DNA from: an uncultured Saprospiraceae bacterium
Lineage (GTDB): Bacteria; Bacteroidota; Bacteroidia; Chitinophagales; Saprospiraceae
NCBI GenBank assembly: GCA_938015595.1
Contig: CALLPI010000016.1
Coordinates: 124,001 to 188,000 of the forward strand
Length of the DNA: 64,000 nucleotides
Direction: 5' to 3'
Below, piece after piece: positions 8,153-14,926 of this stretch; position 1 is the stretch's first letter, and each line of letters starts with the position of its first letter. Both the position numbers and the translations under genes were made by a program. The notes under the pieces were generated by a model. The model was not told where the DNA came from. It searched no databases and worked only from the letters and a program-made list of their open reading frames with translations.

Positions 8153-9064
8153 TCAAACTCCCCCTGTCAACTTCTTGAAAACCTCTTCTACGCTGAGCGC
8201 TTCGCGATGCATTTCAATGAGGGTAAGATTGTGCTTATTGGCCAGTTCCGACACCTGGGGCCGGATGTCTGTTTCGGTAGGAGCTATCAGTTGCCAGCGT
8301 TGCTTAGACAGGCGCTTTACCTGACTAACGCCTTTGAGGCCTGCCAACAAATTTTGCGCTATCTCTTGCTGAAACTCTACAGTGACCACTGACTCGCCAG
8401 CAATGCGCAGTTGTAGCGTATCTATGAGATCATCGGCTACGATACGACCTTTGTGAATGATGATAACCCGGTCGCACACGGCCTGGACCTCCTGCATGAT
8501 GTGAGTGGACAGTATGAGGGTTTTGTCTTTACCGAGCTGCTTGATCAGATCTCTGATTTCTGCCAGTTGATTAGGGTCGAGGCCGGAGGTAGGTTCGTCT
8601 AAGATGAGCACTTCGGGATCGTGGATGAGCGCCTGCGCCAAGCCTACCCGCTGGCGATAGCCTTTGGAGAGCGCGCCAATGAGCTTGTGCTGTTCTGCGC
8701 CCAGGCCGGTGATGTCAATCATTTCGCGGACGCGACGCTCCAGTTGAGGCGTCTTATGCAGTTTGCCCCAGAAGTGCAGGTATTCGCGTACGTACATCTC
8801 TTTGTACAAGGGGTTGTGCTCTGGCAGGTAGCCGATATGCCGACGAGCTTCCAGGGGCGCTTTCTGCACATCAAAACCACACACTTCTGCCGTGCCCTCA
8901 TTGGGAGGCAAAAAGCCCGTAATGATTTTCATGGTAGTGGACTTTCCCGCGCCATTGGGCCCCAGAAAACCCAAGACCTGCCCTTTGCGGGCTTGGAAAC
9001 TCACATCCTGAAGAGCGTGCTGTACGCCATAAATTTTAGTAAGATGCTGAACTGATACCGACAT
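8153..9064 (-). CDS. gldA: ABC transporter ATP-binding protein GldA (gliding motility)
   Basis: 303 residues. Walker A GPNGAGKST, Q-loop region YLPEHNPLY, signature LSKGYRQRVGLAQAL, Walker B VLILDEPTSGLDP and H-loop STHIMQEV are all intact. The overall text (IGYLPEHNPLYKEMYVREYL, DPNQLAEIRDLI) and the C-terminal accessory domain match GldA, the ATPase of the GldA-GldF-GldG transporter associated with gliding and T9SS function. The permease partners GldF and GldG are not in this window. Monocistronic here; ATG start. Confidence 0.9.
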   Translation of the reverse strand: MSVSVQHLTKIYGVQHALQDVSFQARKGQVLGFLGPNGAGKSTTMKIITGFLPPNEGTAEVCGFDVQKAPLEARRHIGYLPEHNPLYKEMYVREYLHFWGKLHKTPQLERRVREMIDITGLGAEQHKLIGALSKGYRQRVGLAQALIHDPEVLILDEPTSGLDPNQLAEIRDLIKQLGKDKTLILSTHIMQEVQAVCDRVIIIHKGRIVADDLIDTLQLRIAGESVVTVEFQQEIAQNLLAGLKGVSQVKRLSKQRWQLIAPTETDIRPQVSELANKHNLTLIEMHREALSVEEVFKKLTGGV

Positions 9065-9151: not shown

Positions 9152-9159
9152 TATATTTG
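9152..9159 (+). promoter_or_regulatory. Candidate -7 promoter element (TATATTTG)
   Basis: Matches TAnnTTTG, the Bacteroidota -7 box. No clear -33 TTTG at the right distance. It would place the transcript start near 9166, which excludes the upstream alternative start at 9157 for the large secreted protein and favours 9190 or 9235. Confidence 0.5.
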
Positions 9160-9189
9160 CGTGCAATTAAATTGTCATCTTACTTCAGC

Positions 9190-12100
9190 ATGTCTTACAC
9201 CAACTTTGAAGCAAAGTTATTTTCCAAAAAGTTCATGTACTCCCCTACGGCCATAATAAGAAGCTGCCGGCTGTTAAGGACTCTTTTCGTCATCTTGGTT
9301 GCAGGCGCGTGGTGCTGTCGCGCTCAAAGCCAGAACTGGATAGTCAACAACAGCGACGACAACGACGATGGCGTGTGTGATGCTGTACATTGCAGCCTAC
9401 GCGAGGCTATCCGAGCTGCCAACCTCAACCCAGGGCCTGACACCATCCGCTTCAACATTCCTGGCGTTGGTCCGCACGTCATTTCGCCCAATGCCAGTTT
9501 ACCTACTATCACTGGGGCAGGTACAGTGATTGATGGCAGTACCCAGCCATTTTTCTCCCCAGGCACAATTGTACTCAACGGCGGTGGCTTAGGCGCACCC
9601 ATTGACGGTATTGAAATCAGCGCGCCCAACTGCGCCATTTATGGCCTGCACATCCGCCGCTTTCCCAGTGGCGTCACTATTTTCAACGCAGCCAATGCCC
9701 GTATTGGCGCACCAGGCGTCAGAGGCAATATTATTGGTGGCAATACTATTAGTGGTATTTTGGTGAGCGGCGTGGCCTCTGCCAGCGTCATTATCCAAAA
9801 CAACCTCATCGGCCTGTTTCCCAACGGCAACAATCCTGACCCCAACCCTATCGGCATCCTACTGGACGGCCAAACCCTGGGGGCTTTTTCCAATACCCAA
9901 ATTGGCGGTAGCGCCATGCAAGAAGGCAATGTTATATCCGGCAATACCCAGGACGCCATCTTTGCCCGCGGAACGCTCAACACCACGATACTGGGCAATA
10001 TCATTGGCCTCAATACTACCCAAGACGCCGTCTTACCCAACGGACGCCACGGCGTATCTCTCACCAATTGCTCAAACCCCATCATAGGCAACACTACCGG
10101 AGGCGGCAACTTAATCATGGCCAATAGTGGCAACGGCATCAACCTGAACAATATCAGCAACGGCGCCAGGATAGAAGGCAACGCAGTGGGAGCATTCCCC
10201 TCAGGCGCAACCGTATTTGGGAATGCCGGATATGGCATTTTTGCATCTGCTGCCGCTTCCTTGCAACTGATAGGGAATACTGTGGCTGGCAATAATGCTA
10301 CGGGTATAGAAATCCTCCAGAGCCATAGCCTCGTTGTTCGCAGCAACTTCATTGGAGCAAATACTGACAATATACCTATGAGCAACCGCGGCGACGGCCT
10401 CAGCCTAACAAATTGTACCGGCTTTATTATAGATAATAATGTCATATCTGCCAACACTCAACATGGCCTATCCATACAAACGCTACCAACCATAGCACCC
10501 GTCAATGGCATAATCACTGCCAACAGAATAGGCACAAGCGCCGCTGGCAACCTGGCCTTGGGCAATAATGGCTACGGCCTGCGCATAGCCCAGGTGAGCA
10601 ACTTACTGCTGGGCGGTAGCCAGGCAGAGGGCAACATAATAGCCGCCAACGGCCTCGGCGGCATCGTACTGGGCAACGTACTGGATGTAATATTGGAAAA
10701 CAATGCTATCGGAACCAATCCATCCGGCACGCTCAACCTCGGCAACAACGGCCCCGGAATAGCTATCCTGCAAATGTCAGATGGCGTGCTGATAGGTGGC
10801 CCTGGCACCGGCAATGTGATTGCCTTCAACCAAAACGCCGGCGTACTCGTCGGCAGCCCGTCCACCAGTTGTACTATCAGCCAGAACAGTATATTTTGCA
10901 ATCAAATCGGCATTGACCTAGACCCTGGCGCCAACGATGATATGCCCTCTCCACACAGCATCTGCGCTACGCCTGCTGGCGTCAATGGTCTGACACAGCC
11001 TTTTGCTAAGGTAGAACTGTTTAGACACAACCACAGCGGATGTGCTGCTCCACCATGCCAGGGGCGCCATTTCATTGCGGAAACCCTGGCCGACGCCAGC
11101 GGTGCCTGGACGATACCTGCAGTACTGAACTTAGGCGATACTCTTACTGCCACTGCCACCAATCTTACAGGCAGTACCTCAGAGTTTTCTACCTGCGTAT
11201 TGACGCAAACTGCGCCGGTAGCAGAGGCGCTCAATTCCAGTCCGGTTTGCCCCGGCGATACGGTGCGCCTTATGGGCAGCGCAACCCCGCTGCTGCCTGG
11301 CACCACCTATGCCTGGACAGGTCCCAACAACTTTTTTTCTACAGAAGCTAACCCGGCAGGTATTCTCGAAGAAGGGCGCTACGTGCTGCGTGTCGCCCAG
11401 AGCTTTTGCCTGTCTGAACCCGATACAACAGAGGTGTATTTCTGGCCTGTACCCACTGAGCAATTGGCCCCAACGCTATGCCCTGGTCAGTCAGTCACGG
11501 TCAACGGTCGTGTTTACAACGCTAATAACCCCAGCGGTATAGAAGTACTGCCCAAAGCCTCTGTCAACGGCTGCGATAGCATTGTGCAAATTCAGCTATC
11601 GTACTTTACACCGGCTACTGGTAACTTCCAGACTACGCTTTGCCCGGGTGGTTCCGTCACCGTCAACGGCACAGTGTATGATGCCAGCCGACCCTCCGGC
11701 ACAGAGATTTTTGCCAACGCTACAACTAACGGCTGCGACAGCACGGTGAACGTGCAAGTCAGCTTCTTCCCGCCGGCTACTGGTACCTTCCAGACTACGC
11801 TTTGCCCGGGTGGCTCCGTCACCGTCAACGGCACAGTGTATGACGCCAGCCGACCCTCCGGCACAGAGATACTGCCCGGCGCCTCCACCAACGGCTGCGA
11901 CAGCACGGTGAACGTGCAAGTCAGCTTCTTCCCGCCGGCTACTGGTACCTTCCAGACTGCGCTTTGCCCGGGTGGCTCCGTCACCGTCAACGGCACAGTG
12001 TATGACGCCAGCCGACCCTCCGGCATAGAAATACTGCCCGGCGCCTCCACCAACGGCTGCGACAGCACGGTGAACGTGCAAATTGCGTTTTACCCACCGG

Positions 12101-13200
12101 CTGTAGGTCGCCTACAATACGGTATATGCCCAGACGAGGTAGTGATTGTGAACGGTCAGGTGTATAACCGCGATCGCCTTAGTGGTATGGAGGTGCTGGC
12201 CGGGCGCAGTGCCCGGGGCTGCGACAGCACCGTCATTGTAGACTTATTCGTGCTACCCGTGCCAGAGTTCACCCTTGTACAGAACATCTGCCCAGGCACG
12301 CTGATCTTTGTGAATGGTACAACCTATAGCGAAAACCGAACCTCCGGCACAGAAATACTACGCAATGCTGCCGCCAATGGCTGCGATTCTATTGTGCACA
12401 TACGCCTCACGGTAGATACTCTGTCGTTGGAAGTGCGTCTGCGCGCAGCCAATTGCTCACCTCAGGAGCGCGGCAACATCACCCTGTTTTCCATTGGAGG
12501 TGGCACAGCGCCTTATGCGGTTAGCCTAGACGGGGGGCCATTTACTTCCATTACTAAGTTTCCTTTTGTGATTGACCACCTGGAAGCTGGCAGATACCTG
12601 CTGAGCTTTCGCGACTTTTTCGGCTGTATCTATCGGGAGGTGGTGACCATACCTGACAATCCGCTCTTTGAAATCCAAGCCGACACGGTGATAATGATAC
12701 GACGCGGTGAACCAGTGACGCTGGGCCACGGCTTCGACTTCGTGCCAGACTTCATCCGCTGGACGCCCGCCGAGGGGCTGAGTTGCAGCAACTGTCTCAA
12801 CCCTGAAACGCTGCCCTTGTTTTCTACCACATACCGTATGGAGGCGGAGTTTTTTGGATGCAAGGCCCGACAAGTAGTACAAATCTTAGTGGACGTGCGC
12901 TTGCATGTATATGCGCCTACGGCGTTCAGCCCCAACGAAGACGGCTACAACGACCGCTTCACCCTATTTGCTGATGACCGGGAAATCACCCGTATCGTTT
13001 CCTTGCGCATTTTTGACCGCTGGGGAGAGCTCGTATTTGAAGGCAAAGACCTGGAGCCGGGCAATCTAGCCCAAGGCTGGGACGGCAAACTCAAGGGCAA
13101 ACCCTGCCCTACAGGCCAATATATTTTTACTGCAGTGGTGGAGAGCGCTTACGATGAAAGGGTGGTGGAGATAAAAGGTGGCTTTTCGCTGCTGCGTTGA
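9190..13200 (+). CDS. Giant T9SS-secreted beta-helix protein with six Cys repeats and type B sorting domain
   Basis: About 1336 residues. A signal peptide sits around MYSPTAIIRSCRLLRTLFV...AQSQ; its own ATG at 9235 is an alternative start. A CSLREAI motif follows (Cys at residue 68), then a right-handed parallel beta-helix of about 500 residues rich in G-N-I/V-I-x-G-N turns. From residue about 758 come six repeats of exactly 54 residues, each with LCPG...VNG...SGTEI...NGCDS, then a SprB-like repeat (near IGGGTAPYAVSLDGG) and a C-terminal T9SS type B sorting domain (AFSPNEDGYNDRF ... RWGELVFEG...GWDGKLKG). It is probably surface-exposed or released, an adhesin or polymer-binding protein; the ligand is unknown. 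Confidence 0.88.
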   Translation: MSYTNFEAKLFSKKFMYSPTAIIRSCRLLRTLFVILVAGAWCCRAQSQNWIVNNSDDNDDGVCDAVHCSLREAIRAANLNPGPDTIRFNIPGVGPHVISPNASLPTITGAGTVIDGSTQPFFSPGTIVLNGGGLGAPIDGIEISAPNCAIYGLHIRRFPSGVTIFNAANARIGAPGVRGNIIGGNTISGILVSGVASASVIIQNNLIGLFPNGNNPDPNPIGILLDGQTLGAFSNTQIGGSAMQEGNVISGNTQDAIFARGTLNTTILGNIIGLNTTQDAVLPNGRHGVSLTNCSNPIIGNTTGGGNLIMANSGNGINLNNISNGARIEGNAVGAFPSGATVFGNAGYGIFASAAASLQLIGNTVAGNNATGIEILQSHSLVVRSNFIGANTDNIPMSNRGDGLSLTNCTGFIIDNNVISANTQHGLSIQTLPTIAPVNGIITANRIGTSAAGNLALGNNGYGLRIAQVSNLLLGGSQAEGNIIAANGLGGIVLGNVLDVILENNAIGTNPSGTLNLGNNGPGIAILQMSDGVLIGGPGTGNVIAFNQNAGVLVGSPSTSCTISQNSIFCNQIGIDLDPGANDDMPSPHSICATPAGVNGLTQPFAKVELFRHNHSGCAAPPCQGRHFIAETLADASGAWTIPAVLNLGDTLTATATNLTGSTSEFSTCVLTQTAPVAEALNSSPVCPGDTVRLMGSATPLLPGTTYAWTGPNNFFSTEANPAGILEEGRYVLRVAQSFCLSEPDTTEVYFWPVPTEQLAPTLCPGQSVTVNGRVYNANNPSGIEVLPKASVNGCDSIVQIQLSYFTPATGNFQTTLCPGGSVTVNGTVYDASRPSGTEIFANATTNGCDSTVNVQVSFFPPATGTFQTTLCPGGSVTVNGTVYDASRPSGTEILPGASTNGCDSTVNVQVSFFPPATGTFQTALCPGGSVTVNGTVYDASRPSGIEILPGASTNGCDSTVNVQIAFYPPAVGRLQYGICPDEVVIVNGQVYNRDRLSGMEVLAGRSARGCDSTVIVDLFVLPVPEFTLVQNICPGTLIFVNGTTYSENRTSGTEILRNAAANGCDSIVHIRLTVDTLSLEVRLRAANCSPQERGNITLFSIGGGTAPYAVSLDGGPFTSITKFPFVIDHLEAGRYLLSFRDFFGCIYREVVTIPDNPLFEIQADTVIMIRRGEPVTLGHGFDFVPDFIRWTPAEGLSCSNCLNPETLPLFSTTYRMEAEFFGCKARQVVQILVDVRLHVYAPTAFSPNEDGYNDRFTLFADDREITRIVSLRIFDRWGELVFEGKDLEPGNLAQGWDGKLKGKPCPTGQYIFTAVVESAYDERVVEIKGGFSLLR
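11461..12432 (+). repeat. Six in-phase 162-bp coding repeats
   Basis: The Cys codon of the CPG/CPD motif recurs at 11479, 11641, 11803, 11965, 12127 and 12289, always 162 bases apart. The three central units (from 11625, 11787 and 11949) are almost identical at the DNA level, while the outer units are diverged, as expected if the array grew from the centre by recombination. Confidence 0.95.
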
Positions 13201-13774: not shown

Positions 13775-14926
13775 ATGAGTCACATTGCCATACTACACAC
13801 CGGAAGCAATATAGGCTCGCGAGAAAAACTCCTCAAACTCGCGCTGCGCCTCATTGCAGAACGAGCAGGCCACATTTTGAAGACGTCGGCGGTGTATAGC
13901 ACCGCACCCTGGGGGGTAAGCGGACAGCCAGCATTTCTCAATCAGGCGGCGATGATTGAAACCCAACTGCAACCGCAAGATTTACTGGATACACTGCTGG
14001 ATATAGAACACCACATGGGGCGCGAGCGCCGCGAAAAATGGGGTAGCCGCCTCATTGATATTGACATTCTTTTCTACGATAACCTAGTGTGGCACACGCC
14101 TACTCTCCAGATACCCCACCCGCACCTACATGAGCGCAACTTCGTGTTGGCGCCCTTGGCCGAATTAGCCCCGGACTGGGTGCATCCTGTGTTGGGTAAG
14201 ACAGTGACTCAACTATTGGCCGAAAGCCCCGACGACCTCGAAGCGGTCCCTCTCCTCGCACAAGACACACATGCTACAGGGCTACCAGAGCGCCTACCTC
14301 ATCAGTTTATAGTCATTGAAGGCAACATCGGCGCAGGCAAAACTACTCTATGTCATCGCCTGGCACGCGACTATGGCTGCCGGCTCATTCTCGAACAATT
14401 TGCCAACAACCCCTTCCTACCTTATTTCTACCATCAGCCCGAACGCTATGCTTTTCCAGTAGAACTATTTTTTATGACTGAACGGCACAAGCAACTACAG
14501 GAAGAGCTGAGCACCCTCAGTCTGTTTCAGCAAACCGTAGTAGCCGACTATTTTTTTGTAAAAACCTCCCTGTTCGCCAAAAACAACCTCTCGGAAGAGG
14601 AGTACCGGCTATTTTTGCGGTTGTTTCACGTACTTAATGCTTCCTTGCCCAAACCTGAACTTCTGGTGTACCTCCACCGCTCAGTAAAGTCACTCATGGG
14701 TAACATACGCCGGCGTGGGCGCAGCTACGAACAGGACATCAGCGAAGCGTATCTCGCACAAATCCAGCAGGCGTATTTTGAATTCTTCAAAGCTGAGCAT
14801 GCTTTTCCCATCCTCATCCTGGATGTAGAGAAAGCCGATTTTCAGCATGATGACCTGAGCTACCAAAAAATTTTGCAGGCGCTGTGCGAGCCGCTACCCG
14901 TAGGGGTTACGCACCGGTGTATTTGA
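13775..14926 (+). CDS. folK: Fusion: FolK (HPPK) plus deoxynucleoside kinase
   Basis: 383 residues with two enzymes. Residues 1-155 are 6-hydroxymethyl-7,8-dihydropterin pyrophosphokinase of folate synthesis (LHTGSNIGSREKLL; the RREKWGSRLIDIDILFYD signature). Residues about 175-375 are a deoxynucleoside kinase: P-loop GNIGAGKTT, a deoxynucleoside-binding helix with LEQFANNPFLPYFY, and the lid-like RRRGRSYEQD. The latter salvages deoxynucleosides. This fusion is known in Bacteroidota. The ATG at 13775 is preferred over the TTG at 13766, which lies inside the candidate -7 promoter box. Confidence 0.93.
   Translation: MSHIAILHTGSNIGSREKLLKLALRLIAERAGHILKTSAVYSTAPWGVSGQPAFLNQAAMIETQLQPQDLLDTLLDIEHHMGRERREKWGSRLIDIDILFYDNLVWHTPTLQIPHPHLHERNFVLAPLAELAPDWVHPVLGKTVTQLLAESPDDLEAVPLLAQDTHATGLPERLPHQFIVIEGNIGAGKTTLCHRLARDYGCRLILEQFANNPFLPYFYHQPERYAFPVELFFMTERHKQLQEELSTLSLFQQTVVADYFFVKTSLFAKNNLSEEEYRLFLRLFHVLNASLPKPELLVYLHRSVKSLMGNIRRRGRSYEQDISEAYLAQIQQAYFEFFKAEHAFPILILDVEKADFQHDDLSYQKILQALCEPLPVGVTHRCI

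Follow-up and report, generated by a model that had tools for sequence, protein, structure and literature searches.

The window, the whole 64,000 nt stretch analysed here, comes from an uncultured Saprospiraceae bacterium and carries a gene whose central part consists of six in-phase repeats (Table 1). Its ATG is more likely to be the true start than the TTG at 9157 listed for the ORF, judging from the signal-peptide-like N-terminus. From N- to C-terminus the product comprises a CSLREA motif, then a beta-helix and an Ig-like domain, and after the repeats one more domain and a T9SS type B C-terminus. The beta-helix scores 56.4 bits against a cut-off of 25.9 (Pfam Beta_helix, three stretches), with NosD matches lengthening the region. 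The C-terminal sorting domain exceeds the curated cut-offs of both TIGR04131 and PF13585, and on this basis the product is predicted to be T9SS (type B) cargo. The domain directly upstream of the repeats is putatively labelled Ig-like, from related domains in the loci and from a profile alignment with the repeat unit. The divergent neighbour, gldA, lies next to the repeat-protein gene in each of the genus's three genomes.

Table 1. Features of the repeat-protein locus (window positions; C1 and C2 are the first and second cysteine of a unit)
Feature	Position	Strand	Details
gldA, divergent neighbour	8153..9064	-	TIGR03522, 440.1 bits vs 402.6
Repeat-protein gene	9235..13200	+	1321 aa from ATG 9235
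CSLREA N-terminal motif (TIGR04214)	9343..9423	+	aa 63-89 of TTG frame; 28 bits vs cut-off 25
Right-handed parallel beta-helix, best Pfam stretch (Beta_helix)	10111..10524	+	aa 319-456
Putative Ig-like domain, directly upstream of repeats	11212..11460	+	Cys at 11248 and 11407
Repeat unit 1	11461..11622	+	C1 11479, C2 11572
Repeat unit 2 (homogenised)	11623..11784	+	C1 11641, C2 11734
Repeat unit 3 (homogenised)	11785..11946	+	C1 11803, C2 11896
Repeat unit 4 (homogenised)	11947..12108	+	C1 11965, C2 12058
Repeat unit 5 (positional counterpart of A7 and B6 in congeners)	12109..12270	+	C1 12127, C2 12220
Repeat unit 6 (positional counterpart of A8 and B7)	12271..12432	+	C1 12289, C2 12382
Post-repeat domain	12433..12672 (limits approximate)	+	Cys 12454; Cys 12625 at C2-like place
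CHU_C / T9SS type B sorting domain	12913..13197	+	TIGR04131, 50.4 bits vs 35; PF13585, 48.2 vs 27

A preliminary description of this DNA reported six in-phase 162-bp units at 11461-12432, each with two cysteines and a VNG turn, and this is borne out: GCDS recurs every 54 residues without indels (5/5 intervals), and the VNG and both cysteines, 31 residues apart, are found in 6/6 units. Its account of the central units as almost identical was slightly generous, since DNA identities among units 2-4 range from 83 to 92% (0.92 for units 2-3, 0.91 for units 3-4, 0.83 for units 2-4), but units 1, 5, and 6 are diverged as it stated. Unit 1 has 0.61-0.64 identity to units 2-4, and units 5 and 6 have 0.43-0.54 to every other unit; the background, from random in-frame 162-mers of the same gene, has a mean of 0.275 and a maximum of 0.475 (n=4260). 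Tandem Repeats Finder gives 2.9 copies of period 162 at 11611-12081, with 94% matches and no indels. Between units 2 and 4, 19/54 codons differ (8 synonymous, 11 nonsynonymous), 13 of them in two patches at unit codons 29-35 and 46-53.

The repeat appears to be unnamed. A three-unit fragment from the window matched no Pfam or NCBIfam family at its curated cut-off, and the other 85 members searched gave scattered weak matches only. PF01336 reached 29.7 bits (cut-off 27) on the whole repeat protein with no single stretch passing E=1, and is read as a probable chance sum over the repeats. Sequence searches of the PDB gave no match with the whole repeat protein; with the profile the single hit was weak (E 0.039), an uncharacterised protein. 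Searches of open-licence PMC papers listed nothing on the repeat. When units were aligned with a profile blind to cysteine, 1145 of 1386 had both cysteines and 203 more had C2, with C1 lying beyond the alignment. The strong constraint on unit length suggested in the preliminary description holds for the repeat-protein gene itself, where 54 residues is exact in three species, but units in the wider family are mostly 51 or 54 residues long. Rather than unit length, it is the spacing between C2 and the C1 of the following unit that is tightly fixed, at 23 residues in 1138/1199 pairs in the family census; within a unit, C1 to C2 spans 22 to 38.

An AlphaFold2 model of three units (86 rows, mean pLDDT 94.0, pTM 0.67) has five strands per unit. 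Coevolution, from 329 and 388 distinct two-unit rows, pairs the first and last strands of a unit in parallel at a constant offset, 42 in the 54-type and 39 in the 51-type. Of 8373 ladders in the 51 set this one ranks first; same-position repeat diagonals and a hairpin outrank it in the 54 set. No support was obtained for a hairpin spanning the unit junction, which ranks 355 and 432 (counted from 0). In the parallel register one continuous strand carries the neighbours of both cysteines: residue +42/+39 flanks C1 of unit i, C1(i), and residue +43/+40 flanks C2(i+1). Among inter-unit couplings of the 51 set, the strongest two link +39 and +41 to residue 26 in the following unit, a position two residues ahead of C2, and there is a further coupling between C1+2 and the residue that precedes the following C2. 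For the 54 set, couplings of +42 to residues 27 and 29 in the following unit fall within the top 16, some other inter-unit couplings being stronger than those at the cysteine junction. The invariant cysteines do not themselves produce a covariation signal, and the C1/C2 block specified in advance stands at rank 36 of 2429 and 202 of 2141. The termini of a unit would thus, from the parallel pairing of its first and last strands, lie at opposite poles, and this coevolution-derived topology would place the two cysteines at the junction between beads. It agrees with an Ig-like pattern (A' parallel to G; F and C in one sheet), for which structural Z is at most 4.0. Profile alignments of the unit with the upstream Ig-like domain score 17.6-23.5, mainly over the C-terminal part of that domain, compared with at most 13.7 for column-shuffled controls (40 shuffles for each of four Ig sets); this HHalign link is suggestive, not conclusive.

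Natural losses of cysteine were tabulated across the family. In the deduplicated census, adjacent units show matched losses of C1(i) and C2(i+1): 1204 pairs keep both, five lack both, three lack C1 with C2 staying, and one lacks C2 alone (p=1.5e-11). In this last case (L113) there is another cysteine a few residues off. The five matched losses derive from four proteins (L039, L112, L113 twice, and L115); permutation within ORFs gave a mean of 1.14, and five or more in 25/20000 trials. Losses show no significant association within units ([[1314,10],[34,1]], p=0.25) or between C2(i) and C1(i+1) (p=0.12). For these counts a C1 was accepted anywhere 20-40 residues before C2, a rule adopted because shifted cysteines had counted as missing; under the earlier scoring, with C1 within 4 residues of its expected place, the C1(i)-C2(i+1) table was [[1222,1],[16,5]] (p=4.9e-9), with p=0.37 within units and p=0.20 for C2(i)-C1(i+1). 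Copies of the window's own genome (L001, L003, L004, L006, L009) were left out, and the deduplicated tables also drop two apparent duplicate records (L059, L066) and a different repeat of 41 residues (L017); retaining these three gives [[1231,1],[3,5]]. Because the L014/L054 duplicates and look-alike records (L045/L051, for example) stayed in, the rows are not all independent. A second set of 404 units, from which 121 already in the first were left out, gave a raw C1(i)-C2(i+1) table of [[200,13],[4,0]] (p=1), with no real interior C2 loss among its rows: the 13 apparent ones are all in L182, with GCD or GCE displaced by a few residues. It does contain three real-looking interior C1 losses where the next unit keeps C2 (one in L169 and two in L170, apparently related proteins), and a fourth, doubtful one in the first unit of L172.

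The ends of the arrays have a pattern of their own. C1 is absent from 14/99 last units, compared with 5/1101 interior ones (p=2e-12), and in the second set from 4/28 compared with 0/182; first units lack it in 2/91 cases. C2 is absent from just 1/99 last units, and from 2/91 first units compared with 4/1101 interior ones (p=0.07), no clear excess. Where the last unit retains C1, a cap cysteine is sometimes found exactly at C2+13 (15/85 such units, 0/14 last units without C1, 0/1101 interior units); the comparison of last units with and without C1 alone gives p=0.12, and some of the 15 are closely related to one another. Among alignable cases, the domain following the array has a C2-like cysteine in 49/60 where the last unit keeps C1 and in 0/8 otherwise (p=1e-5).

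These patterns bear on how the cysteines might be paired. A bond between C1 and C2 of the same unit was raised in the preliminary description; as a classical Ig-style disulfide, leaving neighbours unlinked, it would fit both the two nearly invariant cysteines per unit, even under the cysteine-blind profile, and the cysteines at similar ends of the upstream Ig-like domain. It was rejected, since losses are not paired within units but between C1(i) and C2(i+1); last units lose C1 alone, and the inferred parallel strands would put C1 and C2 at opposite poles, all of which make this arrangement unlikely. That the cysteines form no disulfides at all, and are conserved for metal binding or some other reason, is quite unlikely: neither DsbA nor VKOR families had a match in the window's genome, a point in its favour, but DsbA is found in 17/30 genomes of a draw of relatives, both congeners included (VKOR in 3/30); disulfides between outer-membrane proteins have been reported in Bacteroidota gliding and T9SS (PMC12635249), and matched losses together with cap cysteines fit a bond between two cysteines. 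A bond between C2 of one unit and C1 of the next, across the fixed junction, would account for a spacing far tighter than that within units. It predicts loss of C1 from first units and of C2 from last ones, both rare, whereas it is C1 that last units lose; with losses unmatched as well and no hairpin signal over the junction, this pairing was also rejected and must be considered very improbable.

Variation in repeat number was predicted in the preliminary description, and the species representatives of the genus (the window genome and two congeners) have 6, 8, and 7 units. Orthologues in the congeners have 53% and 57% identity and are likewise adjacent to gldA. In a protein tree, each of the last two units clusters with its positional counterparts from the other species, and central units A1-A5 group by species; by identity, W2-W4 and B3-B4 are each closest to their own kind. 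Central units mostly lack positional correspondence between the three species, and their grouping mostly by species supports the recent expansion or gene conversion that had been suggested for them. A fixed number of units with equal divergence among relatives was looked for and not found in these three genomes. Change in unit number and central homogenisation hold between species. An assembly artefact or chance is hardly credible as the source of the likeness among units 2-4: the assembly comprises 27 contigs, and a different repeat gene of this genome has matches that stop at contig ends, but central homogenisation is seen in both congeners too, and collapse was rejected since the longest exact repeat is just 69 bases (at shifts of one or two units) and ordinary short reads should therefore resolve the array.

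The reading preferred here, with a probability of roughly 70%, is that the repeats form a stalk of disulfide-stapled, Ig-derived beads whose length changes by recombination of whole beads. Weighing against the staple are the unmatched C1 losses, three in the first set and three in the second, and the lack of DsbA and VKOR matches in the window's genome. The protein would be exported by the T9SS to the cell surface, its N-terminal beta-helix borne on the stalk. The six 54-residue units would be compact all-beta beads arranged head to tail in a rod, each of five strands with the first parallel to the last, and the last strand of one bead would continue into the first strand of the next. At each junction C1, after the first strand of bead i, would meet C2, before the last strand of bead i+1, and the two would be joined by a disulfide. 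The candidate bridges are 11479-11734, 11641-11896, 11803-12058, 11965-12220, and 12127-12382, with possible end bridges to the Ig-like domain (11248-11572) and to the following domain (12289-12625). Such a rod would presumably be rigid. Recombination between the near-identical central beads would add or remove whole beads with frame and staple intact, shifting stalk length between lineages, a change that may itself have a function, while the last beads, fitting their neighbours, would remain.

An extension of this reading to the family also seems probable, though held somewhat less firmly. The unnamed Bacteroidota stalk domain of about 51 or 54 residues would be a shrunken Ig fold, forming covalently daisy-chained rods with a C1(i)-C2(i+1) disulfide at every junction, terminated at the ends by C1 loss, a cap cysteine, or a docking cysteine in the next domain, and tuned in length by recombination. 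The stiffness of repeat stalks in surface proteins generally comes from linkers, calcium, or packing. If the proposal is correct, this would be a simple modular rod with a very small Ig-derived unit, stapled yet able to change length by whole beads, and used by a large, poorly studied bacterial group; it also supplies a testable rule of cysteine pairing for well over a thousand unnamed repeat units.

Aureispira is a member of the Saprospiraceae. Its grappling hook protein GhpA, like the predicted product here a large surface protein, gave the best Foldseek matches (PDB 9flp, 9fly, 9flw; 1.3e-5 and 2.2e-4). With rmsd 6.5-11.4 A, Z 3.4-3.5, and no GhpA match in a PDB sequence search with the unit profile up to E=5, this is a likeness of fold only. 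An atrophied Ig fold in which strands D and E are missing and A', G, F, and C retained, the Rib domain is likewise a compact Ig-like bead forming a head-to-tail rod (PMC6936399, whose main text does not contain the term "disulfide"). Rib chains are among the structural matches of the unit, weakly (Z 2.8-3.5), but Rib is from Gram-positive bacteria and has no sequence match with the unit, being absent from the Pfam matches listed for the whole protein (E up to 1) and for the window fragment. T9SS type B adhesins such as SprB share the type B C-terminal signal (PMC9143113), recognised here from sequence alone. Disulfides tether successive repeats of a tandem array, as proposed here, in Hcp proteins with Sel1-like repeats, although those repeats are helical and of another fold (PMC3851747). 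The closest parallels in layout may be the Periscope Proteins (SasG, Rib, Sgo_0707; PMC8201768, PMC9704523), in which tandem beads of high mutual similarity, their termini at opposite poles (here inferred), form a stalk for an N-terminal domain, with variable repeat number and a C-terminal surface signal. The repeat protein has such a layout, its similar tandem domains lying after an N-terminal domain and before a surface anchor signal, only units 2-4 being highly similar. "Disulfide" does not occur in the main texts of those two papers by term count, and the present case differs from Periscope Proteins in being a T9SS protein, in a change of number seen between species, and in the proposed covalent staple between beads.

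The repeat protein is read from an open frame in which the ATG appears to be a better start than the TTG, because a signal-peptide-like stretch, read in the sequence, comes after it. Its domain order is CSLREA (TIGR04214), right-handed beta-helix (PF13229), Ig-like, six repeat units, a Cys-bearing domain, and a C-terminal T9SS type B sorting domain matched by both TIGR04131 and PF13585. PF01336 passes the whole-protein Pfam cut-off, yet no single stretch does, and this match was treated as chance.

Positions of the repeat gene, its repeats and neighbouring features in the window
Feature	Position	Strand	Remarks
Repeat-protein ORF	TTG 9157 to 13200	+	open frame
Putative better start	ATG 9235		
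gldA			divergent neighbour of the repeat gene, head to head
Repeat array	11461-12432		six 54-residue units, in frame
Two antisense ORFs	11592-12081	minus	158 and 161 aa, spanning the repeats; expected from the 162-base period
C1 of unit 6	12289		
Cys of domain after unit 6	12625		
FolK domain, then second part	13778-14926	plus	weak kinase match in second part (TIGR00041, 35.6 bits, below cut-off)

The six in-phase 162-bp units of the preliminary description, each with a VNG turn and two Cys (C1 and C2, 31 residues apart), are exact over the whole array, and its near-identical central units and diverged flanks are also found. DNA identity is 83–92% among units 2–4, against 61–64% between unit 1 and these three, and units 5 and 6 reach at most 54% with any other unit; for in-frame 162-mer pairs from the same gene, the chance level has a mean of 27.5% and a maximum of 47.5%. 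Units 2 and 4 differ at 19 codons, 13 of them in two patches (codons 29–35 and 46–53), a clustering that looks like patchwise copying. Collapse of the array in assembly was judged unlikely because its longest exact repeat is only 69 bases.

The genus was sampled with three genomes, one per species and the window's included. Orthologues in the two congeners (53% and 57% identity) are head to head with gldA; ten neighbour genes served as queries, and gldA alone was recovered near them. They have eight and seven units (A1–A8 and B1–B7), all spaced 54, compared with six in the window (W1–W6), so repeat number, which had been proposed to vary among strains, does vary between species. Trees built from all 21 units place unit 5 beside A7 and B6, and unit 6 beside A8 and B7, both strongly supported. 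The protein tree also unites A1–A5 in one supported cluster; by identity, units 2–4 resemble one another most, as do B3–B4. Central branches are often weak, W2–W4 do not form a starred group, and a long-branch warning was issued by the tool. From these trees and identities, the last two units look old and positional across the three genomes and the central ones young and lineage-specific, in keeping, between species, with the recent expansion or conversion suggested for the centre.

Half (40) of 80 related loci from public genomes carry Saprospiraceae or Saprospirales in their titles, and an even draw from the phylum gave a match in 20 of 296 genomes, the window's own included. A three-unit window fragment reached the cut-off of no Pfam or NCBIfam family. 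A profile search of the related loci and the window found 1458 units, spread over 110 ORFs and counting copies from the window's own genome, with up to 50 units in one ORF and spacings mostly of 51 (521) or 54 (423) residues. Given this mix, exact unit length is a property of an individual array rather than of the family: the length constraint described earlier stands for the window and both congeners, where 54 is exact, and the wider family varies in length. Across the family, C2 is 23 residues from the next C1 in 1138 of 1199 pairs, and C1 to C2 inside a unit ranges from 22 to 38. Elsewhere in the window genome, loci L002 and L007 (ends of contigs C18 and C23) have identical unit sequence at both ends, and a second, 51-residue array protein may be split between them. 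Two adjoining 51-residue units at locus L008 (C8:374128-374487) differ in protein sequence only at the linker end, so another protein seems to have undergone a recent duplication. L163, in a congener (G002:C1:69000-88900), encodes a very large repeat protein whose 6438-aa open frame contains several arrays of such units, three arrays being followed by near-identical longer blocks; their last units have Cys at C2+13 and C2+15. Many units look near-identical in the 15-unit array of L182 (G244:C1:2520000-2529500), where units are shorter before a GCDT motif and profile positions shift. The repeat of L017 is of another type, sharing the GCDS motif but spaced mostly at 41 residues, and was left out of the counts.

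AlphaFold2, given units 2–4 and 85 relatives, predicted five strands per unit (mean pLDDT 94.0, pTM 0.67). Coevolution in two-unit rows (388 distinct of 51-type, 329 distinct of 54-type) gave hairpins between neighbouring strands and placed a unit's first strand parallel to its own last strand at a constant offset of 42 (54-type) or 39 (51-type), which fits the strand limits of the model. Among 8373 ladders in the 51 set this parallel one ranks first; in the 54 set a hairpin and same-position repeat diagonals, the latter reflecting copying, rank above it. The parallel first and last strands are interpreted as the A'-G pair of an Ig fold that has lost its middle strands. The Rib domain, a reduced Ig fold, is reported to retain A', G, F and C, with D and E absent and a coil in place of B (PMC6936399). 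Aligned as profiles, the unit and the upstream Ig-like domain beat all 40 column shuffles in each of four sets, chiefly through the C-terminal part; this suggests a relationship without establishing it by itself. Similarity to known structures is weak (best Z 4.0); Foldseek ranked pieces of the Aureispira protein GhpA highest, alike in predicted fold only, with no sequence support in a profile search.

The parallel register would bring C1 of one unit (i) near C2 of the next (i+1), flanking neighbouring residues of a junction-crossing strand, and would put a unit's own C1 and C2 at opposite poles. Inter-unit couplings agree in part with a C1(i)–C2(i+1) junction. The two strongest in the 51 set join +39 and +41 to the next unit's residue 26, two before C2, and C1+2 is coupled to the residue preceding the next C2. 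For the 54 set, the pairs of +42 with 27 and with 29 fall in the top 16 without being the strongest. The preset C1/C2 block comes 36th of 2429 and 202nd of 2141 in the two coevolution sets. Cys losses, counted in adjacent unit pairs with a Cys-blind profile, test this register independently of coevolution. For C1(i)/C2(i+1), both are present in 1204 pairs, only C1 in 1, only C2 in 3, and neither in 5 (Fisher p = 1.5e-11); losses permuted inside each ORF gave a mean of 1.14 matched losses, with five reached in 25 of 20000 runs. The same counts are 1186/19/7/1 for C2(i)/C1(i+1) (p = 0.12) and 1314/10/34/1 for C1/C2 inside a unit (p = 0.25). The preliminary description had proposed predicting the fold and looking for a disulfide between one unit's two Cys; a fold is predicted, and that pairing is disfavoured by unmatched losses and opposite poles, the matched losses being those of C1(i) and C2(i+1).

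Array ends were counted in 109 runs, each at least three units long. C1 is absent in 14 of 99 last units and C2 in 1 of 99, as against 5 and 4 of 1101 interior units; first units give no clear support from that end (C2 and C1 each absent in 2 of 91). A Cys exactly at C2+13, near where the register would put the neighbour of C1, occurs in 15 of 85 last units with C1, in 0 of 14 without it and in 0 of 1101 interior units, the 15 being partly close relatives and 15/85 versus 0/14 alone giving p = 0.12. In a second set of 40 more stretches (404 units; 121 seen earlier were left out), C1 is absent in 4 of 28 last units versus 0 of 182 interior ones, and the C2+13 Cys occurs in three last units of one protein. 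The raw C1(i)/C2(i+1) table here is 200/13/4/0 (p = 1), with no real interior C2 loss among the pairs, since all 13 apparent ones are from L182, where the Cys is merely shifted. Three C1 losses precede units retaining C2, which is against a C1(i)–C2(i+1) staple. The two sets together give 125 distinct last units; the next domain could be aligned for 84 of these, and 16 with the C2+13 Cys were set aside. That domain has a C2-like Cys in 49 of 60 cases when the last unit has C1 and in 0 of 8 when it does not (p = 1e-5); of the 11 misses, 10 come from alignments that end too early. Two other Ig profiles gave 44/51 versus 0/3 and 50/61 versus 1/10. In the window, unit 6 retains C1 and the domain after it has a Cys.

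Neither DsbA nor VKOR has a match in the window's genome, the smaller one, which retains Cys-bearing arrays; the two congeners do have matches to the DsbA family. Disulfides are documented in the Bacteroidota envelope (PMC12635249), and the phylum therefore has an oxidising route.

We conclude that the repeat protein is a predicted T9SS surface stalk built from compact, Ig-derived beads whose number changes through central recombination, with the beads probably stapled one to the next by disulfides. No report of bead-to-bead disulfides in bacterial Ig-like stalks was found among the open-licence PMC papers searched. Repeat-to-repeat disulfides are known from Hcp proteins, but there the repeats are helical and of another fold (PMC3851747). 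The stalk protein would work like a Periscope Protein (PMC8201768), with the change in number seen here between species only.
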